NCBI GenBank assembly: GCA_023301725.1
Contig: JALZUD010000004.1
Location: 1 to 64,000 of the forward strand
Origin: Granulosicoccus sp.
GTDB taxonomy: Bacteria > Pseudomonadota > Gammaproteobacteria > Granulosicoccales > Granulosicoccaceae
DNA length: 64,000 nt
Reading direction: 5' to 3'
The position numbers were made by a program, and so were the translations under genes. Below are positions 24,381 to 54,497 of the stretch, piece by piece. Position 1 is the stretch's first letter, and each line of letters opens with the position of its first letter. The notes under the pieces are model-generated. The model saw only the letters and a program-made list of their open reading frames with translations. It ran no database searches and was not told the DNA's origin.

Positions 24381-25082
24381 TTATCGTGCAATTGCCCTGA
24401 TGTGCTCTTCACATTGCATGGAGACCGTGTTTAGGCGGAGCGTCATTTGCTGACACGCGCCCGCAAAATTATTGCCTGCCAATGATTTGTCTACCTCCAA
24501 CGCTGGCCCGATACCGATCACAATGCTTGAAAATGGCATGGGCAGCATGAATCTATCCCAGGAGTCTAGCCTCCATATTCGTGTGCCAAAGTAGGCCACA
24601 GGCAGAAGGGGTGCACGACTGAGTTGAGCCAGCATCGCAACACCAGGTTTGCATTGATAGATGGGTCCTGTTGGTCCATCAGGTGCGACGATGGGTGATA
24701 TTTTTTGATCTTTTATGGCCGTGTAGATGTTTCGCATCGTTTGGGCGCCGCCTCGCGTTGCCGATCCGCGAATAATGTGGATGTTTTGATTTTTCAATAT
24801 GCGACTCGCAATATCACCATCGACAGACGGGCTAATCAGGCACCCTAGCTGCAATGAGGGACTCTGTTTTGCCATTTCCAGCAAATACCGGACGCTGAAT
24901 ATCTGTTGCTGGTGCCAGTGACAAGGAATAAACGGCTCACCCGATGCAAGCAAGGCTTGTAGATGCTCCTCGCCGATGACCTTTTGGATCTTGCAGGTGC
25001 GCCAGATACAGCCAACAATAGCCCAGATCAATGGAGATAAAACACGGGCGGCCATGAGTTTGCGCCGTTGCTTGAAGGTCAC
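24381..25082 (-). CDS. DUF374-type lysophospholipid acyltransferase family protein
   Basis: Probable membrane-associated acyltransferase of the DUF374/LPLAT group. The 233-residue product has HWHQQQIF near residue 55 in place of the classic HxxxxD block. SPSVDGDIASRILKNQNIHI and IRGSATRGGAQTMRNI come next, then the strongly conserved IVAPDGPTGPIYQCKPGVAM. It starts with GTG (25082); an ATG lies 27 nt further in. It is divergent from the P450 operon across 94 nt, which suggests shared control and a possible role in placing the operon's acyl product on a lipid. That role is inference. Confidence 0.8.
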   Translation of the reverse strand: MTFKQRRKLMAARVLSPLIWAIVGCIWRTCKIQKVIGEEHLQALLASGEPFIPCHWHQQQIFSVRYLLEMAKQSPSLQLGCLISPSVDGDIASRILKNQNIHIIRGSATRGGAQTMRNIYTAIKDQKISPIVAPDGPTGPIYQCKPGVAMLAQLSRAPLLPVAYFGTRIWRLDSWDRFMLPMPFSSIVIGIGPALEVDKSLAGNNFAGACQQMTLRLNTVSMQCEEHIRAIAR

Positions 25083-25176
25083 GTTTGTTATGGGCCGTTG
25101 CTCGATGGAAGATCAACCCCAATGATATACTCAAGTTACCTAGATTGCGTCTAAACACAAACGCATTACCCGGATA

Positions 25177-26619
25177 ATGAGCATTACTTACAAGGCACCG
25201 CCAGGGGTGTCCATCACAGCTGTTTGCCATACCGCAAGCCAAAATTCTGGGCAAAACAGTGGGCAAAAACCTGTCCATATCTCTGGTGGCACGTCAGGAC
25301 AGTTTTCTGGCGATACGGTATGCAATGCTCCAGGCCCCAGCGAGGCTTTTGACGTCAACGCCGATCAGCTTACATTCGATAAGCTGACGCAGTGGAAGCG
25401 TGACTATGGTGATCTCATCGCTATCACGCCGGCCAAGAGAGGTGATCCTGCGATTGTCCTTAACAATCCAGAACACGTTAAACACGTTCTGATTTCCCAT
25501 CATCACAACTATACAAAGGGCGTAGGCTTTGAACGTGTGGCCATGATGCTGGGGAACGGCCTCATTGTGAGCAATGGGAACACGTGGCGCACTCAGCGCC
25601 GAATGGTACAGCCGGCGTTGCAACGTAATAGGGTTGCCCAACATGCGCTCATGATGCAGCGCTGCAACCTGAGTAAACTAGAGCGGTGGCTATCGAAAGC
25701 TGCCCGCGGTGAAGCGATTGATATCACTACTGAGGTGAGTGATCTTGCTTTGGAAATTATCTTGCGGGCGTTGTTCAGCGGCGATCTTGATTCGTTAATT
25801 ATCAGGCAAGGCAAAAATCCGTTCTCGTTTCTGGTGGAGGATTTTACGCGTGATTTACAGCTTGCCATGCGCTTTCGTGCGTTAACAAAGCATGTGGTGG
25901 ATATCATGAGCAGACGACGTGCGGAGAACCGTATCGAGCACGATTTTCTCTCCTTACTCATGGAATCGCGTGACAAAGACACAGGCTTACCCATGTCAGA
26001 CAAGGCGCTCATAGATGAAGTTATGACGCTTATCGTGGCAGGACATGAAACAAGCTCTGGTTCTTTGAACTGGGCCTGGTATTTACTGTCTCAAAATCAG
26101 GAAGTAGAAAGCCAGCTACACAAAGAGGTAGATGCACTGGCCAACGATCCAGGAATTGATGACTTGGCGCAACTGAAATACACGCGTGCGGTAATAGATG
26201 AGACATTACGCCTCTATCCACCGGTATGGCTGTTCTCGCGAAAAGCCATTGATGAAGATTGCTTTGCAGGCGACAAGTTTACAGTCCAAATCCCCGCTGG
26301 TACGGATGTTTTTCTGTGCCCTTATCTGATGCATCGAGATGAACGGTATTGGTCTGATCCTCAAACGTTTGCACCTAATCGCTTTTTGGGCGATGGTGCT
26401 AAGCAAAGAAACCCTCACACCTACTATCCATTTTCTTTAGGTGCACGCCGGTGTATCGGAGAGTATTTTTCGGTGGTAGAAATGCAACTGCATTTAGCGT
26501 TGCTGGCAAAACACATACGTTTGAAACCCATCTCAGCTGATCCTGTATGCATGGATTTATCCATTAACCTGCGTTCTCGTGGCAGCATCATGATGATGCC
26601 GATAGCAAGAAAAGCATGA
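25177..26619 (+). CDS. Cytochrome P450
   Basis: Haem-thiolate monooxygenase. The 480-residue product has the I-helix oxygen motif AGHETSS (A288-), the K-helix ETLRL (E342, R345) and the haem ligand Cys426 in FSLGARRCIGEYFS. The overall pattern resembles CYP102/CYP4-like fatty-acid hydroxylases. About 70 N-terminal residues are of low complexity (SQNSGQNSGQK), with no membrane anchor. No ferredoxin or reductase domain is fused or adjacent. Its last codons overlap the next gene (ATGA), so it is translationally coupled to a fatty acyl-AMP ligase with an acyl carrier domain. An acyl-carrier-bound fatty acid is therefore a likely substrate; this is inference. Confidence 0.92.
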   Translation: MSITYKAPPGVSITAVCHTASQNSGQNSGQKPVHISGGTSGQFSGDTVCNAPGPSEAFDVNADQLTFDKLTQWKRDYGDLIAITPAKRGDPAIVLNNPEHVKHVLISHHHNYTKGVGFERVAMMLGNGLIVSNGNTWRTQRRMVQPALQRNRVAQHALMMQRCNLSKLERWLSKAARGEAIDITTEVSDLALEIILRALFSGDLDSLIIRQGKNPFSFLVEDFTRDLQLAMRFRALTKHVVDIMSRRRAENRIEHDFLSLLMESRDKDTGLPMSDKALIDEVMTLIVAGHETSSGSLNWAWYLLSQNQEVESQLHKEVDALANDPGIDDLAQLKYTRAVIDETLRLYPPVWLFSRKAIDEDCFAGDKFTVQIPAGTDVFLCPYLMHRDERYWSDPQTFAPNRFLGDGAKQRNPHTYYPFSLGARRCIGEYFSVVEMQLHLALLAKHIRLKPISADPVCMDLSINLRSRGSIMMMPIARKA

Positions 26620-28670
26620 CAGACCACAGTCATTTTCACACTCTGGTTGAGTTGCTACAGGCGCGAGCAAACAGCGAGCACAGCATCACCTTTATTTATG
26701 CCGCAGATAGTCGGCAAAGTGTCAGCTTTGGTGAGATGCTGCAAAGAGCCAGACACAGGCTTGCGCACTTCCAATCAAAAGGCGCTATTGCTGGTAGTTA
26801 CCTGCTTATACACAGTGGTGACAACGCACTGTTTATTGAAGCATTCTGGGCGTGCCTGTTGGGCGGCATTGTGGCAGTGCCTGTAGTCACAGGTAACCAT
26901 CACGAGCACAGATTATTTCATATTGCACAAAAGCTGAATTTACCTTTCTTGTTTATCGACGAGAGTACTTTGGCGAAAATCAAGCGATTTTCAGCACAGT
27001 CTGGTCTACAAGAGGAGTACAGCGCTCTGCTTGCGCGTGCTTGTTTCACCGATACGGTGGCCTCCCTTGAGAGCGAACCCGTATTGGTAGATTCTGCTCC
27101 TGATGATGTGGCATTTATCCAGTTCTCCTCTGGTTCTACGCGTGAGCCGCAGGGAGTTGTACTTTCACACCGTAATCTGCTGTGCAACGCAGGTGCCATC
27201 ATTAACGGCTGTGAAATGAGCACTGATGATCGCTTGTTGAGCTGGATGCCACTTACTCATGACATGGGTCTTATTGGCTTTCATTTGACGCCGCTACTGT
27301 GCAATACGAGTCACTCTTTAATCAGCACTGATGTTTTCGTTAGGCGCCCAGGTATCTGGTTGAATGAAGCTCAAGAGATGCAGGCAAGTATTCTTTGCTC
27401 CCCCAACTTTGGCTACCAACATGTGTTGAAGTCGTTCAACCCAGAGAAGCAGCCCCGTCTAGATCTGACATCAGTACGTCTTCTGTTTAATGGTGCAGAA
27501 CCTATATCTGTCAGTCTGTGTCAAGAGTTTATGCGTGCGATGTCTCCATTCGGGCTCGACGCTGACGCTATGATACCTGTGTACGGGCTTGCTGAGGCCA
27601 GTCTTGCAGTAACGTTTCCGTCGTTGCAAAAGCGCTTCTCGACTCTCACGCTGGATAGATCTTGTTTAGCGCTTGGTGAAACGGTTAAACAGCTTGGCGT
27701 CGGTGGCGATGGTGTGCAATTTGTCTCTGTGGGTGAGCCGGTGACGCACGTGCAGCTATTGATAAAAGATGGCTACGGTGTTCACTGCAAGGATAACGTG
27801 ACAGGTCGTATTTGTATTAAGGGTGCTAACGTCACTCGTGGCTATTTCAATGAGCCTGAGCTGAACGCACAGCTTATCGACAAGGAGGGCTGGCTGAACA
27901 CCGGTGATCTGGGGTTTATTCACGACAAGCAGTTGTATATCACCGGGCGTGTAAAAGACATCATTTTTGTTAATGGCATGAACGTTTATCCACACGACTT
28001 GGAAGAATTGCTAGTTCAACGGGGCCTTGTTGAACGTGGCAAAGTTGCAGTAGCTAGTCAGGCTGCGACTGATCAAGCCAGCGAACGCTTACTGGTATTC
28101 GTAGTGCACAGGACTGAAATTGTCGAACTTGCTTCGTTAGCGCGCGATATAGCAAAAACTCTAACAAAGGAGGCTGGTGTTAGTGTGCACTCTGTTATTG
28201 CTGTGCCGCGCATTGCCAAGACAAGCAGTGGCAAGGTTCGGCGTTTTCATTTAGTGTCTGAGTTTGTACAAGGCAGCTACCCAGGCATTATTCAAACATT
28301 ACCTGCTGATGTATCTGCAGAGTGGGGGCATGGGGCGGTCTCAAACTTGGGGTCGAATACGCGCAGGCAATTGGGTGCTGATGCAAATAAGGCATTATCT
28401 GAGCGTGTTGAAGCTGCAGGATCTGATGCCAAGAACCCCTCTATCAGTCATCAACTGCTTGCTATCTGCAACTTACAAGTAGAAGGTGTACATGTTGGGC
28501 TCAATGACAACTTGTTTGATCTGGGTATCAGCTCCCTGACTTTGGCGCAAATACACGCATCAATTGAAGATACTTGGCCAGAGCAGGTGGATATCACGGA
28601 TCTTTTCGACTATCCAACGGTTGCTGATCTGTCAGCTTACATCAATACAAAAGTGGAAATAGCATCATGA
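26616..28670 (+). CDS. Fatty acyl-AMP ligase fused to an acyl carrier domain
   Basis: ANL-superfamily enzyme that activates a fatty acid as acyl-AMP and loads it on a carrier. The 684-residue product has the adenylation motif FSSGSTREPQGVVLSH (about 169), LSWMPLTHDMGLIGFHLTPL typical of FAALs, PVYGLAEASLAVTFP, LNTGDLGFIH and the C-terminal GRVKDIIFVNGMNVYPHDLE. Residues about 605-680 form an acyl carrier domain whose attachment Ser640 lies in LGISSL, where the usual Asp of DSL is Ser. A linker separates the two. It overlaps both neighbours by ATGA. No ketosynthase or thioesterase is near, so it is not an ordinary polyketide starter module. Confidence 0.92.
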   Translation: MTDHSHFHTLVELLQARANSEHSITFIYAADSRQSVSFGEMLQRARHRLAHFQSKGAIAGSYLLIHSGDNALFIEAFWACLLGGIVAVPVVTGNHHEHRLFHIAQKLNLPFLFIDESTLAKIKRFSAQSGLQEEYSALLARACFTDTVASLESEPVLVDSAPDDVAFIQFSSGSTREPQGVVLSHRNLLCNAGAIINGCEMSTDDRLLSWMPLTHDMGLIGFHLTPLLCNTSHSLISTDVFVRRPGIWLNEAQEMQASILCSPNFGYQHVLKSFNPEKQPRLDLTSVRLLFNGAEPISVSLCQEFMRAMSPFGLDADAMIPVYGLAEASLAVTFPSLQKRFSTLTLDRSCLALGETVKQLGVGGDGVQFVSVGEPVTHVQLLIKDGYGVHCKDNVTGRICIKGANVTRGYFNEPELNAQLIDKEGWLNTGDLGFIHDKQLYITGRVKDIIFVNGMNVYPHDLEELLVQRGLVERGKVAVASQAATDQASERLLVFVVHRTEIVELASLARDIAKTLTKEAGVSVHSVIAVPRIAKTSSGKVRRFHLVSEFVQGSYPGIIQTLPADVSAEWGHGAVSNLGSNTRRQLGADANKALSERVEAAGSDAKNPSISHQLLAICNLQVEGVHVGLNDNLFDLGISSLTLAQIHASIEDTWPEQVDITDLFDYPTVADLSAYINTKVEIAS

Positions 28671-29659
28671 ATACTCGTCGCATTGGCTCCTTATCTGTAT
28701 CGCCCACGGGTTTGGGTTGCATGAACGTGTCATTCGGTTACGGCCATGTCGATGAAGAGGCGGCTGCGCAAGTGCTTCTGCAAGCTCTGGATGCTGGAGT
28801 TACGTTTTTCGACACCGCACACATGTACGGGGCGGGACATAACGAGACGCTGATAGGCAAGGTGCTCAAACCACATCGTCAAAAATTTATGTTGGCCAGC
28901 AAATGTGGCCTCAGCAATGATGGCATTGACGGTAGGCCAGACACCATTCGCAGGCAATGCGAACTCAGCCTCACACGCATGAAAACTGATGTTATTGATC
29001 TGTACTATTTGCATAGGCTGGATGGCAACGTGCCGATAGAGGAGAGCGTGGGCACCATGGCCGATTTAGCTGTAGAGGGTAAGGTTCGTGAATTGGGCTT
29101 ATCGGAAGTGTCATGTGAGACTCTCAAGCAGGCACAAAAAGAGACAAGTATTGCAGCAGTGCAATCGGAGTATTCATTGTGGAGCCGCACTCCCGAGCAC
29201 GGTATGCTCGATTTGTGTGCTAGAACTGGAGTCACCTTTGTGCCGTTTTCACCTTTAGGCAGAGGGTTTCTGGCAGGTTCAGCAAAACAGGTGTCAGAGT
29301 TGCCTGAGGATGATTTGCGGGCAACTATTGCGCGTCCACGTTTCGAAGCAGACGCTTATGCTCACAATATGAAACTACTGGCTGGTTTGAATGATATCGC
29401 ACAGCAGTACCAGTGCACCATGGCCCAAATTTCATTAGCGTGGTTGTTAGCAGTGGAAGAGCAGCGCCTTGTGCCAATACCCGGAACTCGGAATGTGCAA
29501 CATATGAAAGACAACGCTGCAGCCGCAGCGATTGAACTAAAACCTGCAACGTTGAGCCAGCTCAACGATTTGATTAATGAATCAACGGTGCAGGGCACGC
29601 GCTATACAGCCGACCGCATGGCATCGACTGATAGCGAGCGCGATGTGGAATCTGCCTGA
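28667..29659 (+). CDS. Aldo/keto reductase
   Basis: NADPH-dependent oxidoreductase with a TIM-barrel fold. The 330-residue product has the catalytic tetrad Asp49 and Tyr54 (FFDTAHMYGAG), Lys79 (LASKCG) and His116 (YYLHRLDG). The C-terminal cofactor motif VPIPGTRNVQHMKDNAAAA resembles AKR13/YakC-type enzymes. It overlaps the preceding ligase gene by 4 nt (ATGA), making it the third gene of the P450 operon. It would reduce an aldehyde or ketone in the product, possibly one formed by the P450; this is inference from context. Confidence 0.92.
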   Translation: MNTRRIGSLSVSPTGLGCMNVSFGYGHVDEEAAAQVLLQALDAGVTFFDTAHMYGAGHNETLIGKVLKPHRQKFMLASKCGLSNDGIDGRPDTIRRQCELSLTRMKTDVIDLYYLHRLDGNVPIEESVGTMADLAVEGKVRELGLSEVSCETLKQAQKETSIAAVQSEYSLWSRTPEHGMLDLCARTGVTFVPFSPLGRGFLAGSAKQVSELPEDDLRATIARPRFEADAYAHNMKLLAGLNDIAQQYQCTMAQISLAWLLAVEEQRLVPIPGTRNVQHMKDNAAAAAIELKPATLSQLNDLINESTVQGTRYTADRMASTDSERDVESA

Positions 29660-29694
29660 GCGGGTTCAACAATAGCGGGTTAGGCAACCTGGTT

Positions 29695-30306
29695 TTATTC
29701 TAAGTTCCAGGTGAACCACTCAGCCAGATAACCATTGATGTACAGTTGCTGAACAATATGAACCCCCTTAGAGTTTTCTCTCACTTGCGTGGAAGTTTCT
29801 CTAATATTTGTAAATTGACCACCACGCAAATTTTTACTGGTGTGTCTATGTTTAGCATTGACGGCTAAGCTTTTATCGGCACTGGAGATAGCATCCAAGC
29901 CGGACAAAGGCAGGCGGACCTCTGAGCGTCTGGAAGAACGATCATCGCTATCATGTTCCCAGGCTTGAATAACAATTTCGTTGAAACGATTAACCTGAGT
30001 GGGTCGAATCTCTTTAATTGAAAACTGGTGGGTTTCTGCGCGCAATTCGGACACCCCAAAACACTGCGTTCTGGTGCCTTCGCCGTGTTTGAATCTACTT
30101 GAACTCAAATCATCTAGCAGGCGTTTATCAGCGCGGCTTAAAGACTTCAGATCTGCATGTTTTTCGTGGTCCAGATCATAGTAATCATCGCCCATCAACT
30201 GAAGATTTGGCGATATTGCCCCGCAGTAATCAGCCAGCGCGGGAGTTGTAAAGCCGAGCGACACAGATACGATAGCCAGCCATACAAATTTTTTAGAAAT
30301 TTTCAT
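29695..30306 (-). CDS. Secreted protein of unknown function
   Basis: Not recognised. The 203-residue product has a clear Sec signal peptide (FVWLAIVSVSLGFTTPALA, cleavage near residue 25). The mature part is hydrophilic and rich in charged residues and Ser, with two Cys (one just after the signal, one near residue 82) that could form a disulfide. The C-terminal part has a beta-rich look (GVHIVQQLYINGYLAEWFTW). It is transcribed alone, convergent with the aldo/keto reductase, so it is probably not part of that operon. Confidence 0.6.
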   Translation of the reverse strand: MKISKKFVWLAIVSVSLGFTTPALADYCGAISPNLQLMGDDYYDLDHEKHADLKSLSRADKRLLDDLSSSRFKHGEGTRTQCFGVSELRAETHQFSIKEIRPTQVNRFNEIVIQAWEHDSDDRSSRRSEVRLPLSGLDAISSADKSLAVNAKHRHTSKNLRGGQFTNIRETSTQVRENSKGVHIVQQLYINGYLAEWFTWNLE

Positions 30307-48086: not shown

Positions 48087-51000
48087 ATGAATTCGTGCTT
48101 AATCAATCGAGTGTTGGAATACAGACGCGTGTTTTGGGTTGCCGCAGTGTCTCTATTAAAAAAACACCATGTCAACTGTGTTAAAAAAGTGCACAAGGCT
48201 GGCGCTGTGTCTGATGGCATTGTTACGAAAGCGCTTGTGGATACGCTCGACCAACGTCTGTTGTTCTCTGCTGAGCATCCCTTGGGTTTATCGCTGGCAA
48301 TCAATGATGATGTCAGTGATGAGGCGCATCAGGCGGATTCGGATTTCATTTTACAGGCTCTGGGCCAGCTGCACGAGCAACAACGTAACATTCTAGATGA
48401 CGATATTCCTGCCAACGATGATTCAGGAATTGATAGCGCGTTCGTTGTTATCCATGTAACCACAGACGAGGATATCTTAGATGCGCCAGAGCGAGGTACT
48501 TTCGAGGCAATTATGGCGGATCCGGGTGCTGATAATGCCATCTCCTTGCGCGAAGCCATCGATGTCGCTAATGCTGATACTAGAGTGGATGTTGTTCGTT
48601 TGCCGGCAGGCACGTACGCTCTAAACCTTAATCCATCCGGGGCTCAATTTGAAAACCTGAATCAAGAAGGCGATCTTGATCTAGGTATGAATGCCGACAG
48701 TCAATATATTATTCAAGGTGATAGTGCTGATACCACGATTATCAAACAGGATTTAAACAATGAGCGCGTGATGGAGGTGCAATCTGGCCATATCATTATT
48801 AATGATCTTACGATTAGTGAGGGCACGGCGGTAAATCGCGGTGGTGGCCTCGTTGTTGAAAATCAATCAACCGTTGTATTGCAGAACGTTAGCATTGAAG
48901 ACAATGAAGCTAGGAATGAAGGTGGAGCTCTTTTTGTACGTGGGAACGCAGTTCTTGATAACGCATCTTTGTCTGGCAATAAATCTTTGTCTGGTGCGGC
49001 TATTTCGATAGAAAATACTGGATCAGTGACCATCATCAACAGTGATATTAGTAATAATGAAGCATACTCTTTGGGTGGCGCAATAGCTGTAGAGGGAGAA
49101 CTGTTCTTATACAACTCCACTGTTGAAAATAACGTTGTGGATGATGATGATGCAACAAGCCGTGCTGAACAAGGTGGTGGGATCTTCATTTTTAGCAATG
49201 GTAATGCGACCATAGCTGATACCTTGATAAAAGGGAATGTGTCTTCGAGTTTTGGTGGCGGCATTTCTAATCTGGGTTTGTTGAATTTATCTGACTCGCA
49301 AGTTGTCGAAAACAGAGCAACGTTACTGGGGGGCGGCATATACAATAATGCAACCGCTATATTGGAACGTACATTGATTTGGGGAAGCCGTGAAGTGGAA
49401 ATCACGAGCGAGTTTGGTGGTGGAATATACAATGATGAATTGGGGGACCTCACATTACATTATTCTGTTGTTGCAAATAATTCCAGTGACCTCGGCGGGG
49501 CCGGAATACAAAGCAAGGGAAACATTGATATTCGCCGCAGTATAATCACTAATAATGATGTTGTTGACAGCTCAATCGGTGGAGCGGGAGGTTTGTATAT
49601 CAATCGCAACGAACCCCTTAACATACACATATCTGACTCGCTAATAGCGAACAATACAGCATCTGGTCAAGATGTTGACGTGGACAGAATTAGTGGCAAT
49701 AAATTGGAATCCTCAGGGTTTAATTTTATTGAAAATGCTTCAAATTTCGAAGCACTCGATACCGATGTTATCAATATTGATCCATTGTTCAATAGTCTGA
49801 GATTATTTGAAGATCAAGTAATTTTGGAGATAAGCGAGGCTAGTGCAATATTTAATTCAGGAAGTTCTGTAGGTATCGGCGATATGACCATGGCTGGTAC
49901 CGCTGTAGATTCCACACCAAATATTGGCGGCATAACAACGAACTTCGAAGGTGGCTTGGTCTTTTGGGTTGGCTCTTCAGGGGATATATTTCGTTCCTCA
50001 CCTGCATTCACGTTCAATCAACGAATCGTTGCAAGTTCTGGTGCAGGTAACTTTACGGAACTTGAAGTCAATACTGCGCAGAACCGCCTGTTCTTCCTTG
50101 TTGAAAACACAGACAACAACGTCATAAAAAGTTCAAAGCTCGATGGAACCGATGTGAAAGATGAGATTTCGGTGAGCTCGGATGCTGTGTCCTTTGCCAT
50201 TGACGCTGATGACCAACGAATTTATGTGGCCGTAGCTGGCACTGATCCAAGTATCATCCAATACGACATGAGTGTGAACAGTGTTAACCCTGTTATTGAA
50301 GAAATTGCATCGCTTACGGGACGTCCAACAGACATAGAATATGACGATCAAAACCAGACACTTTATTGGTCTAGCATAGGAGAAGATGCCAGTATAGAGT
50401 CGCTGCAAAGGGATAGCTCAGATCCACAGATCTGGCAGGATTCACCCATTGGACTCACTGATGACACAATTGACGATAGACCCTTTGAAATCGCGATCGA
50501 TGAATCTAATAATGTTGTCTATTGGTCAGATGAATTTAATGACACACTTTCATCTTACGATCCTACTAGAAACACAGAAGTATTAACTGAACTCTTTATC
50601 GGCAATGGAAGGCCGCAGGCGGTTGTTTTCAACAGCTTGGATAATGATTTGTTGGTTAGCAACAACAATAACAGCAATAGCCGAGTTTTGTCGGTAGATT
50701 CCTCATTGGATTCTACCGGCTTGGCCAGCCTATCAGAGTTCATGCTTCGATCTGATTTTGTAGGTTTGGAAGCAGACGAACAAACGGTTATTTTTGTTGG
50801 GCCTACGCCGTTAACCAATGGTGGCATTAATGTTACGGAAGGTGTCACCGAGCTGTTGATTAACCAAAATCTAGAGTATTGGGATGATGATTCTCGTCCT
50901 GACCAAATTACCTATACCCACAATACAAGCGTTTCAGATGTCGATGAGAATATTGGTGAACTCATTATTACCGTTGATACTATTGTGACTGATACATTCA

Positions 51001-54000
51001 CGCAAGACGACATTAACAACAGACGCGTGCGTATTACTCACAATGGCGTGCATGAAAGCACAGAAAGTAATTGGACAATTGGGGTCCACTTTGATGTTAC
51101 GGATCATAACTCGGTGTCAATGGACACCACTGTTTTTGATGTAAGAGTGACAAATATCAACGATGCTCCTGTATTCACTACAGGTGATGCAGTTGTTGTC
51201 AACAATGCTGATCCTGTGCAAATTGGAATTCAACACTTAATCACCTCAGATGAAGATACCGCTGAAGGTGATATTCGGTACGATATTGTATTCTCACACG
51301 ATTACAGTTTTGTAAAAAATATGTCTGATACAACATCTTTCACAGCTATGGAGCTTGAGAATGATGAAATATTTTTCAGGTACTCCGGTTCGCAAGACGA
51401 TACCACTATCGATATTCCCCTTCTGGTAAGCGACGGTAACACTGACGTTGATGCAATACTAAGTGTTGTTCTCGATTTAGAACCGGTCAACGATAATGCT
51501 CCTGTGGCCGTAGACCACACAGTGAGTGGTAAGCGTAATGACATCCTAGATTCTGTGGAGCCTTTGTCTGGGGAATCTAACACCAATACATTACTGCATG
51601 GTTCATCGGATGAGGATCTTCCAGATGATGCGTTAGAAGTAAGATTAATATCCGGACCAAGCTCAGGGTTACTTGATGTTCGAGCTGATGGAACATTCAC
51701 GTACTCAGTTGATGAGTCAATACCCAAAGATACAACGGTACTAGATTCATTTACCTATGAAATAATAGACGAAGTGAATAATGTCTCTCCACCGGCCACT
51801 GTTAGCATCGAAGTGGAAGGTTTACAAAGACCAGCTATCAATGGTGATCTTTCCGATGTAACAGTCGATGAGCTGCAGTCACTTGATCACACCTTTGAAC
51901 AAGATGTATTCACAAGTTCAGAAACGTCAGAGCCCTTTGAATGGTCAATTTACATTGACAACAGACCTATTCCTGCCTGGTTATCTCTGGATAAAGATAC
52001 CGGCACGTTGTCTGGCACACCCGCCGATAATGATGTTGAGTCTTTTGAACTGCATGTATTGGTTACTGACGAACATGGGCTTGAATCAGATGAAGTATCC
52101 ATCACAATAACCGTTAATGACATTAACCAAACACCGGTAATACATTCAGCACCGACAGAGATTGTGGAAGAAAACAGCGAAGGTCAGCTGGTTGCCACGG
52201 TAAACGCCTCTGATCCTGACGCCAACGATGTATTGATATATAGCACAGATGATTCAAGATTTAGATTTGACGATAATAAACTTAAGCTTCGCGAGTTTGA
52301 ATCACTGGATTTTGAAACTGACGAAGAAGTAGTTCTGACGGTAACAGTGGATGATCAACAAGGTGGTATAGCAGTATCGGAAGAGATCACTATTCAGGTT
52401 ACTAACGTAAACGAGCCGCCAACATTAGAAATCACTGATCTGGTTGTTGTGCAAGAGAACACATCAGATGTTGATATTGGCACTGTCACAGTGAATGATC
52501 CTGACGCGGGTGCACAACTGGATGTGACAGTTAGTGATGCTAGGTTTGAAATTGTTGGAGATAAACTGCGCTTAAGAGCTGGAGAAGAACTAGACTTTGA
52601 CACCGAGCCGCAGGTGCTATTAACGGTGTCGGTAACAGATGGTGTGAATGATCCGGTTTCGCAAGAAATCACGGTTACGGTCACTAACGTAAACGAGCCG
52701 CCAACATTAGAAATCACTGATCTGGTTGTTGTGCAAGAGAACACATCAGGTGTTGTTGTCGCCACTGTCACAGTGAGTGATCCTGATGCGGGTGCAAAAC
52801 TGGATGTGACTGTTAGTGATGATAGATTTGAAGTGGTTGGGGATAAACTGCGCTTAAGGGCTGGAGAAGAACTAGACTTTGACACCGAGCCGCAGGTGCT
52901 ATTAACGGTGTCGGTAACAGATGGTGTGAATGATCCGGTTTCGCAAGAGATCACGGTTACGGTCACTAACGTAAACGAGCCGCCAACATTAGAAATCACT
53001 GATCTGGTTGTTGTGCAAGAGAACACATCAGATGTTGATATTGGCACTGTCACAGTGGATGATCCTGACGCGGGTGCACAACTGGATGTGACCGTTAGTG
53101 ATGCTAGGTTTGAAATTGTTGGGGATAATTTGCGCTTAAGAGCTGGAGAAGAACTAGACTTTGACACCGAGCCACAGGTGCCGTTAACGGTGTCGGTAAC
53201 AGATGGTGTGAATGACCCGGTAACGGAAGATATCACGGTTATGGTTACCAACGCCAACGAGCCGCCAACAGTAGAAATCACTGACTTGGTTGATGTGCAA
53301 GAGAACACATCAGATGTTGTTGTCGCCACTGTCATAGTGAGTGATCCTGATGAGGGCGCAGAACTGGATGTGACTGTTAGTGATAACAGGTTTGAAATTG
53401 TTGTTGACAAACTGCGCTTAAGAGCTGGTGAAGAACTAGACTTTGAGAGGGAGCCGCAAGTTTCACTCACGGTGTCGGTACAAGATGGATCTGGAGTAAG
53501 AATTACTCGTGACGTAGATATCACCGTTCTCAACGTTAATGAGAATCCAGTACAAACCGTCGCTGTACCGGATCAGCAAATCGAGGATGGCGATGTGCTC
53601 ACCTCCATGTTCAATGCGTATATTGATCCTGATGGTGATGAACTGACTTACACGCTCACTCTAGCCAATGGTGATGCACTGCCATCGTGGCTGGTCTTCG
53701 ATCAGGTCGCAGGCGAATTGCGTACCGGAGATCTACCTCGTGATGAGGTGAGTGCGCGTTTGAAACTCAGTGCTGATGATGGTAACGGTGGAGTATTGCA
53801 ACTGGAATTTACAGTGAGTTTTTTGCCAGAGCCTGAAATTGGTTTTGGCAGTCCTTTGGAAGAGGAATTGCCTGATATTGAACCCATCGAATTCGCGCCG
53901 GAGGTTCCAACTACAGAAAGAGAATCAGAATCTGCATCAGAAACCTCTACCGATACAGAGCTTGAAGAGAGCACAGAGTCAGAGTCTAGAACGGCTGAGA

Positions 54001-54497
54001 CCAGTGACGCTCTGTCGGGCATTTTCATAGACAGTGATGATGATTCCATTTCGACGGGCGTCTCACGTACCAATGCAATATCAGAATTTTTATCAGCACA
54101 AAGCGATAATCGTGCGGATGGATCTGATATCAGTATCATGCAACGTGATGTGTTCGATGAGTCAACAAGCCTTACTGATTTGTTTGCGATAACAAGCCAG
54201 CTTGATCCTGATGCGTTCTCAGCCTTTCAGGAGAATTTTGAAAAGCAGCGTGAAATATTTGAATCAGACATCGCGGCATCAAAGGGTATTGTCGTGTCAT
54301 CTATAACGCTGAGTTCAGGCCTCTCAGTCGGTTATATCCTCTATTTGCTCAGGGGCGGCGCTATTATGACAAGCATGCTAAGTTCCTTGCCTGCCTGGCG
54401 ATTTGTCGACCCGTTGCCCATACTAGGCCACATGGAGGGTTCTCTGAACGTTGATGAGGAGTCTTTGGAGACTCTGGTTACAGAGTCTGGGCAATAG
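48087..54497 (+). CDS. Giant mosaic LEPR-XLL-like surface protein with cadherin-type repeats
   Basis: A 2136-residue acidic protein. Residues about 40-70 hold a motif like the LEPR-XLL export-type signature (LDQRLLFSAEHPLG). Residues 130-540 begin with a CSLREA-like segment (NAISLREAIDVANADTR) and form a right-handed beta-helix rich in NNEA.G/GGG turns. Residues 614-890 look like a YWTD-type propeller (QTLYWSSIG, NVVYWSDEFND). CSPG-like, VCBS-like and dystroglycan-type cadherin domains (about 890-1350) come next. A divergent cadherin-like unit then precedes four 94-residue repeats (1439-1814), then a Glu/Ser/Thr-rich stretch and a C-terminal hydrophobic helix (LSVGYILYLLRGGAIMTSML) ending in a PLPILGHM tail. 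It probably acts in adhesion or as a large secreted matrix protein; the secretion route is not visible. Confidence 0.82.
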   Translation: MNSCLINRVLEYRRVFWVAAVSLLKKHHVNCVKKVHKAGAVSDGIVTKALVDTLDQRLLFSAEHPLGLSLAINDDVSDEAHQADSDFILQALGQLHEQQRNILDDDIPANDDSGIDSAFVVIHVTTDEDILDAPERGTFEAIMADPGADNAISLREAIDVANADTRVDVVRLPAGTYALNLNPSGAQFENLNQEGDLDLGMNADSQYIIQGDSADTTIIKQDLNNERVMEVQSGHIIINDLTISEGTAVNRGGGLVVENQSTVVLQNVSIEDNEARNEGGALFVRGNAVLDNASLSGNKSLSGAAISIENTGSVTIINSDISNNEAYSLGGAIAVEGELFLYNSTVENNVVDDDDATSRAEQGGGIFIFSNGNATIADTLIKGNVSSSFGGGISNLGLLNLSDSQVVENRATLLGGGIYNNATAILERTLIWGSREVEITSEFGGGIYNDELGDLTLHYSVVANNSSDLGGAGIQSKGNIDIRRSIITNNDVVDSSIGGAGGLYINRNEPLNIHISDSLIANNTASGQDVDVDRISGNKLESSGFNFIENASNFEALDTDVINIDPLFNSLRLFEDQVILEISEASAIFNSGSSVGIGDMTMAGTAVDSTPNIGGITTNFEGGLVFWVGSSGDIFRSSPAFTFNQRIVASSGAGNFTELEVNTAQNRLFFLVENTDNNVIKSSKLDGTDVKDEISVSSDAVSFAIDADDQRIYVAVAGTDPSIIQYDMSVNSVNPVIEEIASLTGRPTDIEYDDQNQTLYWSSIGEDASIESLQRDSSDPQIWQDSPIGLTDDTIDDRPFEIAIDESNNVVYWSDEFNDTLSSYDPTRNTEVLTELFIGNGRPQAVVFNSLDNDLLVSNNNNSNSRVLSVDSSLDSTGLASLSEFMLRSDFVGLEADEQTVIFVGPTPLTNGGINVTEGVTELLINQNLEYWDDDSRPDQITYTHNTSVSDVDENIGELIITVDTIVTDTFTQDDINNRRVRITHNGVHESTESNWTIGVHFDVTDHNSVSMDTTVFDVRVTNINDAPVFTTGDAVVVNNADPVQIGIQHLITSDEDTAEGDIRYDIVFSHDYSFVKNMSDTTSFTAMELENDEIFFRYSGSQDDTTIDIPLLVSDGNTDVDAILSVVLDLEPVNDNAPVAVDHTVSGKRNDILDSVEPLSGESNTNTLLHGSSDEDLPDDALEVRLISGPSSGLLDVRADGTFTYSVDESIPKDTTVLDSFTYEIIDEVNNVSPPATVSIEVEGLQRPAINGDLSDVTVDELQSLDHTFEQDVFTSSETSEPFEWSIYIDNRPIPAWLSLDKDTGTLSGTPADNDVESFELHVLVTDEHGLESDEVSITITVNDINQTPVIHSAPTEIVEENSEGQLVATVNASDPDANDVLIYSTDDSRFRFDDNKLKLREFESLDFETDEEVVLTVTVDDQQGGIAVSEEITIQVTNVNEPPTLEITDLVVVQENTSDVDIGTVTVNDPDAGAQLDVTVSDARFEIVGDKLRLRAGEELDFDTEPQVLLTVSVTDGVNDPVSQEITVTVTNVNEPPTLEITDLVVVQENTSGVVVATVTVSDPDAGAKLDVTVSDDRFEVVGDKLRLRAGEELDFDTEPQVLLTVSVTDGVNDPVSQEITVTVTNVNEPPTLEITDLVVVQENTSDVDIGTVTVDDPDAGAQLDVTVSDARFEIVGDNLRLRAGEELDFDTEPQVPLTVSVTDGVNDPVTEDITVMVTNANEPPTVEITDLVDVQENTSDVVVATVIVSDPDEGAELDVTVSDNRFEIVVDKLRLRAGEELDFEREPQVSLTVSVQDGSGVRITRDVDITVLNVNENPVQTVAVPDQQIEDGDVLTSMFNAYIDPDGDELTYTLTLANGDALPSWLVFDQVAGELRTGDLPRDEVSARLKLSADDGNGGVLQLEFTVSFLPEPEIGFGSPLEEELPDIEPIEFAPEVPTTERESESASETSTDTELEESTESESRTAETSDALSGIFIDSDDDSISTGVSRTNAISEFLSAQSDNRADGSDISIMQRDVFDESTSLTDLFAITSQLDPDAFSAFQENFEKQREIFESDIAASKGIVVSSITLSSGLSVGYILYLLRGGAIMTSMLSSLPAWRFVDPLPILGHMEGSLNVDEESLETLVTESGQ
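52401..53528 (+). repeat. Four tandem 282-bp repeats inside the giant protein gene
   Basis: Units start at 52401, 52683, 52965 and 53247, each 282 bp (94 codons). The first three are nearly identical at DNA level, including silent positions, which points to recent duplication or gene conversion; the fourth has drifted. Each encodes a cadherin-like domain with VQENTSD near its start and GEELDFDTEPQV in the middle. A fifth, much older relative precedes them at about 52130-52400. Confidence 0.95.

Follow-up and report, generated by a model that had tools for sequence, protein, structure and literature searches.

A conserved cytochrome P450, fatty acyl-AMP ligase-carrier, and DUF374 acyltransferase gene module from Granulosicoccus sp. 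as a candidate system for acyl modification and transfer

A 64,000-nucleotide stretch of contig JALZUD010000004.1 from Granulosicoccus sp. (the whole stretch is referred to here as the window) contains overlapping genes for a cytochrome P450 and for a fatty acyl-AMP ligase (FAAL) fused to an acyl carrier domain, facing a divergent gene for a DUF374 acyltransferase. We find that these three genes form a conserved module. Judged from sequence, the module probably carries out acyl modification and transfer independently of polyketide synthases (PKS) and nonribosomal peptide synthetases (NRPS), a reading to which we assign a probability of about 0.58. The aldo/keto reductase gene that follows them in the window is probably a mere neighbor.

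Results

Relatives keep the three genes together

The module and its functional elements occupy the following positions in the window.

24381–25082, minus strand: gene for a DUF374 (LpxJ-like) acyltransferase of the lysophospholipid acyltransferase (LPLAT) superfamily, 233 aa (PF04028, 56.7 bits)
25083–25176: divergent intergenic gap of 94 nt, presumed to hold the promoters
25177–26619, plus strand: cytochrome P450 gene, 480 aa (PF00067, 250 bits)
26616–28670, plus strand: gene for the FAAL fused to an acyl carrier domain (FAAL-carrier), 684 aa (PF00501, 171.4 bits; PF00550, 45.5 bits)
28473–28643, plus strand: acyl carrier domain of the FAAL protein, residues 620–676 (PF00550, 45.5 bits)
28533–28535, plus strand: codon of Ser640, the predicted phosphopantetheine site (Gly637 and Ser640 unchanged in 24 of 24 rows of an alignment of relatives)

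The window was compared with the best 80 of at least 583 confirmed FAAL-carrier stretches. Neighbors within 6 kb were called on naive open reading frames (ORFs) by phmmer scores above 100 bits (above 40 for phosphopantetheinyl transferases (PPTases) and above 60 for GGDEF/EAL proteins), and the flanks were searched with the window proteins and then with further representatives. A P450 gene was present in 63 of the 81 loci, in every case upstream of the FAAL gene and on the same strand. P450 and DUF374 genes occurred together in 48 loci, divergently oriented in 44, and a DUF374 or LpxL-type gene accompanied the FAAL-carrier gene in 68. When the set was limited to the 52 loci whose flanks extend for at least 2.8 kb upstream and at least 1 kb downstream (29 short-flanked loci being left out), 41 had the P450 gene, 41 the DUF374 gene, 11 an LpxL-type gene, and 48 at least one acyltransferase; only L017, L054, L055, and L068 lacked both acyltransferase types.

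We also examined 185 genomes of the class that were chosen regardless of the locus. A full-length FAAL-carrier (at least 770 bits) was found in eight of them, including the genome of the window, and these represent eight different families. An LPLAT gene was adjacent in all eight (six DUF374 and, in G017 and G156, two LpxL-type), and a P450 gene was adjacent in seven, the exception being G167. DUF374 was encoded in 7 of the 8 FAAL-carrier genomes versus 16 of the 177 remaining genomes (Fisher p 1.4e-6), with the total of 23 including one match below the family cutoff. Matches not of the 684-aa type were excluded from the FAAL-carrier count: one of 644 bits in G116, located within a frame of 2523 aa, and ten with 403–440 bits in frames of 934–1124 aa. 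Nine of these ten spanned just the ligase portion; the tenth (G182) spanned the full model. A draw of 299 genomes from the phylum gave two matches at E 1e-170, the window's own genome and G361 (1938-aa frame). Per species, the module is uncommon. The distance matrices of the FAAL, P450, and DUF374 proteins correlated at 0.90–0.95 over 46 loci, and none of 2000 permutations reached values as high.

A first-pass annotation of the window had proposed a four-gene acyl pathway, suggested a neighborhood search for conserved P450, aldo/keto reductase, and DUF374 partners of the FAAL-carrier, and named relatives that never keep the genes together as the outcome that would speak against it. Relatives in eight families do keep the P450, FAAL-carrier, and acyltransferase genes together, so this part of the proposal stands with the DUF374/LPLAT partner included; the reductase step does not, its gene being adjacent in 2 of the 81 loci. 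The sequence itself is as that annotation described it, with four ORFs at the positions given, 4-nt ATGA overlaps between the P450 and FAAL genes (26616–26619) and between the FAAL and reductase genes (28667–28670), the 94-nt divergent gap, and a ligase that has its own acyl carrier domain.

The encoded proteins retain family signatures

A search of solved structures with the ligase was led by 3kxw (247 bits), which we take to be a Legionella FAAL, with 3pbk and FadD32 chains next and 4r0m (McyG) among the matches. The stretch that presumably represents the FAAL-specific insertion aligned to 3kxw without a large gap, and 4r0m was gapped there by 13 and 7 residues. With FAALs as its closest solved relatives and the insertion stretch filled, the ligase is, on this comparison, a FAAL; its C-terminal domain combines the PF00550 match with the phosphopantetheine serine expected of an acyl carrier domain. 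The nearest relatives of the ligase came from assemblies named Granulosicoccus.

The P450 protein combines the PF00067 match with the ExxR motif and the heme-binding cysteine: Glu342, Arg345, and Cys426 were invariant among 20 homologues, as were Ala288, Gly289, Glu291, and Thr292, with His290 nearly so. Its nearest solved relatives were LUT5, 3dbg, CYP4B1, CYP46A1, and P450 BM3 chains. In two loci with an intact FAAL-carrier gene, all that was seen of the P450 upstream was short fragments (L030:7660-7992 and L012:651-1095), which suggests decay or assembly errors.

Six residues are described as essential in Rickettsia typhi LpxJ, a lipid A acyltransferase, in the available part of PMC6148475. 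All six, matched by motif, are retained in the DUF374 protein, which also matches PF04028 and is predicted to adopt the LPLAT fold; no relative of this protein turned up when solved structures were searched by sequence. The module DUF374 proteins make up a lower-scoring subgroup of the family. The residue after Trp-His was Gln in 48 of 51 of them, a mark that is not exclusive, since other DUF374 proteins that we retrieved have Gly, Asn, Asp, Glu, or Gln there. The possibility that the DUF374 enzyme is a missing LpxM was considered, but the genome of the window already encodes two PF03279 proteins, probably LpxL and LpxM. As it does not replace LpxM in an LpxM-lacking genome, we name the protein LpxJ-like rather than LpxJ.

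Twenty-four loci have an LpxL-type gene, and in 22 of them it is convergent with the FAAL gene and lies within 300 nt of the FAAL end. The LpxL-type identity was confirmed by Pfam for L015 and by genome search for G017 and G156. Among the counted loci, the LpxL-type state reflects at least two changes on the FAAL tree, and a further clade of eight loci labeled Betaproteobacteria or beta proteobacterium, with flanks too short for counting, is also LpxL-type. The module copy of PF03279 scored 97–130 bits. Another copy scored higher (151–277) in G189, G188, G017, and G156 and lower (58.5) in G208; in G203, G206, and G207, the sole PF03279 match sits in the module, as seen when positions were compared by hand. 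These last three cases fit a lipid A function, and their assemblies may be incomplete.

The aldo/keto reductase gene is probably a neighbor

Two further features lie downstream of the FAAL gene in the window.

28667–29659, plus strand: aldo/keto reductase gene, 330 aa, overlapping the FAAL gene (PF00248, 238.5 bits)
29676–29691: terminator-like hairpin 3′ of the aldo/keto reductase gene (consensus match only)

The reductase gene adjoins the FAAL gene only in the window and in L001, where the reductase is 91% identical. In L004, an orthologue (70% identity) stands last in an operon, after genes for an AraC/DJ-1 regulator, a trimethylamine-methyltransferase-like protein (PF06253), and a DAO-GCV_T protein, the last of which it overlaps. 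The orthologue in L005 also ends an operon, after the AraC/DJ-1 regulator and DAO-GCV_T genes, and L003 has these two genes with no reductase in the stretch examined. From the protein families, the L004/L005 operon would serve methylamine breakdown, and the position of the reductase gene next to the FAAL gene is best explained, as the simplest history, by loss of intervening genes. The best solved relatives of the reductase were perakine reductase and IolS. Because of the rare adjacency and the orthologues that end another type of operon, the reductase was rejected as a pathway step and is probably not part of the pathway.

Terminator-like hairpin matches numbered 14 in the region versus 5.3 in shuffled sequence, and no sigma-70-like consensus match was found inside the 94-nt divergent gap. 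Pfam scans of 21 window proteins, which cover most ORFs from 19.7 to 36.8 kb, showed no PKS or NRPS gene beside the FAAL gene. A 203-aa ORF without a Pfam match (29695–30306, minus strand) is kept in L001 downstream of the reductase gene. Elsewhere in the window, positions 48087–54497 encode a 2136-aa protein with cadherin-like and putative Ig repeats.

Other neighbors vary among lineages

A PPTase-like gene above 40 bits was detected in 22 of the 81 loci, located between the DUF374 and P450 genes, upstream of the FAAL gene, or past the LpxL-type gene; it was Pfam-confirmed in L041, L031, and L014, and the matches near 40 bits (L035 and L049) are doubtful. Of 24 loci checked, 13 had GGDEF/EAL-type genes no more than 6 kb away versus approximately 2 expected (binomial 5e-9, kinship ignored), an expectation drawn from 627 GGDEF domains in 87.4 Mb, so that GGDEF plus GGDEF-EAL queries on the observed side are set against a GGDEF-only background. 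A pair of GT2 and PMT_2-like genes stood beside the module in L016, L019, L049, L074, L062, and L126, and a PMT_2-like gene also in L027; the encoded PMT_2-like protein, Pfam-confirmed for L126 only, presumably resembles ArnT. A gene for an NMT1-type substrate-binding protein lies beside the DUF374 gene in the window and in six of eight Granulosicoccaceae loci (L001–L005 and L008) and was not detected in the other 74 loci, which looks like local synteny.

Some loci had other arrangements. A KASIII-like gene directly follows the FAAL-carrier gene at L131:9330-10298, in a genome with no P450 gene in the module. At L009:5542-9893 and in similar places in about ten loci, the downstream side of the module carries an AcrB-type pump gene together with a membrane-fusion-like gene. 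In two Granulosicoccaceae loci at the edge of an aryl-polyene-like cluster, the DUF374 acyltransferase shares one ORF with an ApeI-like dehydratase (L006:5337-6599) or overlaps it (L007:5344-6641). At L129:7998-13957, a DUF374 gene and an adjacent PPTase-like gene belong to a row that also includes genes of the glutamine amidotransferase, Maf, biotin-carboxylase, and carboxylase types; the genome of this locus (G086) is without a FAAL-carrier at the threshold used. Three ORFs without a Pfam match lie directly by the module at L041:4118-5212 and L048:6480-7949.

Discussion

The case for the tethering, oxidation, and transfer proposed here comes from what is known of the protein families and from the conserved order of the genes. 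A PPTase, encoded elsewhere in this genome and adjacent to the module in many relatives, would prime Ser640, as its family suggests. The FAAL would then adenylate a free fatty acid and load it onto its own carrier domain, thereby bypassing coenzyme A. Gene overlap and conservation point to the P450 as the enzyme that would oxidize the carrier-bound chain. Because an acyltransferase of a lipid A family is near-constantly present, the LpxJ-like DUF374 protein would move the oxidized chain to a cell-envelope lipid, with the LpxL-type enzyme substituting in other lineages. Release of the product by transfer to a lipid acceptor, as the first-pass annotation had suggested, is the best-fitting reading.

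As to the acceptor, both acyltransferase types come from lipid A families and glycosyltransferase genes recur nearby, so our preferred candidate, held tentatively and at less than even odds, is lipid A or an outer-membrane glycolipid related to it. Somewhat more doubtful is the full proposal of an undescribed envelope pathway spread in the class, in which a P450-oxidized acyl chain would be transferred by swappable LpxJ-like or LpxL-like enzymes to lipid A or an outer-membrane glycolipid under control linked to cyclic di-GMP.

A number of observations weigh against these interpretations. The correlated trees may merely reflect shared descent. The P450 was below threshold or absent in 18 of the 81 loci, where some contigs end early, and thus oxidation may not be obligatory; G167 has the FAAL and DUF374 genes and no P450 gene, but a KASIII-like gene. 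With two PF03279 proteins (214.6 and 154.8 bits) in the genome of the window, the usual late lipid A acylations need no DUF374 enzyme, and further PF03279 proteins lie outside the module in this genome and, apart from G203, G206, and G207, in the other genomes with a placed module copy. In phmmer searches at E 10, the 241-aa PPTase of the same genome (L084) matched none of three module PPTases, and hence no orthology is claimed. An AcrB-type pump gene is found downstream in 10 loci and a membrane-fusion-like gene in 11, at 0.8–6.5 kb; the AcrB family was confirmed for one cluster member (L009), the fusion protein was recognized by eye, and, as antisense ORFs were clustered together in GC-rich loci, cluster sizes were used for the pump genes only. 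With such genes close to some loci, a secreted product is conceivable and export possible. Finally, the L006 and L007 modules abut the aryl-polyene-like cluster, perhaps indicating another product class.

The pump genes bear on the most probable of the alternatives, which we still consider unlikely: the oxidized chain might be placed on a small soluble or amphiphilic acceptor to give a secreted or signaling lipid instead of a structural envelope lipid. FAALs are typical of natural-product pathways in the available portions of PMC11837247 and PMC8460268, and the GGDEF/EAL-type genes could tie the product or its control to lifestyle signaling. However, the available sources know both alternative acyltransferase families from lipid A, pump genes are common in general and missing from most loci, and the GGDEF excess takes no account of kinship. 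Far less probable is the simpler scheme in which the FAAL-carrier and acyltransferase only re-acylate lysolipids in the manner of Aas and the P450 serves separately in detoxification. The Aas-type NCBIfam model NF006386 was among the sub-threshold matches of the ligase, and the loci without a P450 agree with such scavenging, but every P450 detected was encoded upstream in the same orientation, and P450 and FAAL distances are correlated (r 0.90).

Equally improbable is the original four-gene route of activation, P450 oxidation, aldo/keto reduction, and transfer. The ATGA overlap of the FAAL and reductase genes and their retained adjacency in L001 argue for it, whereas the scarcity of that adjacency, the L004/L005 orthologue at the end of an operon that encodes a DAO-GCV_T protein (and, in L004, PF06253 as well), and the perakine reductase and IolS relatives argue against it. 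Least probable of all is an aryl-polyene-type lipid, with the acyltransferase transferring an aryl polyene or a partner chain. The L006 ORF that joins DUF374 to an ApeI-like dehydratase and the continuation of L006 and L007 into GT2, PF03279, and ketosynthase genes speak for it, but the arrangement was seen in only 2 of the 81 loci, and ApeI-like matches exceeded the cutoff in only 2 of 22 genomes searched. Membership of the window in this class was rejected, as its own genome (94% complete, 148 contigs) gave no ApeI-like match.

The activation, oxidation, and transfer module that we favor shares features with several known systems. Escherichia coli Aas activates a free fatty acid, tethers it to acyl carrier protein (ACP), and transfers it to a membrane lipid. 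The module would follow the same activate-tether-transfer logic but differs in having separate genes, a dedicated fused carrier, a P450 acting before transfer, and a DUF374 or LpxL-type enzyme in place of the PlsC-type domain. The P450 BioI (CYP107H1) oxidizes acyl-ACP in biotin synthesis and is thus a P450 that acts on a carrier-bound fatty acid; the module P450, however, is nearest to other solved chains, and no biotin gene was found among the scanned window neighbors. The likeness to LpxJ, the late lipid A acyltransferase of Helicobacter, Campylobacter, and Rickettsia, lies in PF04028, the six essential residues, and the LPLAT fold, whereas the module protein belongs to a lower-scoring subgroup linked to a P450 and a FAAL-carrier in a host with two PF03279 proteins. 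A relative of LpxL/LpxM (PF03279) stands beside the FAAL in several lineages, but this module copy scores 97–130 bits, and four genomes hold a higher-scoring second copy. FAAL-ACP didomain proteins of PKS/NRPS and olefin synthase pathways have the same fusion of FAAL and carrier in the available part of PMC11837247, but the module has a P450 and a lipid acyltransferase beside it and no PKS/NRPS gene among the scanned neighbors.

In their available portions, PMC11837247 and PMC8460268 (one review and one study) place FAALs chiefly with PKS/NRPS genes and leave P450 unmentioned in the main text. The accessible text of PMC8460268 describes typical bacterial FAALs as "always found" alongside PKS or PKS/NRPS genes; according to the same text, FAALs have also been recruited independently of PKS/NRPS, some are interspersed with dehydrogenases and oxygenases, and a few are fused to lysophospholipid acyltransferases. 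Because oxygenase-linked and acyltransferase-fused FAALs are already reported, the idea of PKS/NRPS-independent uses is not new. Among titles and beginnings of abstracts, we found none on a FAAL with DUF374 and P450, which is weak evidence of novelty as subscription papers were mostly outside the search. Within the literature searched, the parts are known, and the combination and its spread appear new.

Bacterial FAALs have so far been described, in the sources as available, mainly as serving PKS/NRPS lines. A PKS-less set of FAAL-carrier, P450, and acyltransferase would give these enzymes a second job in the modification of membrane lipids and would tie a P450 to the envelope lipids of Gram-negative bacteria. 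The module predicts oxidized acyl chains on envelope lipids and proposes a role for a divergent DUF374 subgroup; if the envelope pathway is correct, it would add a further late acylation to the outer membrane, one that depends on a P450.

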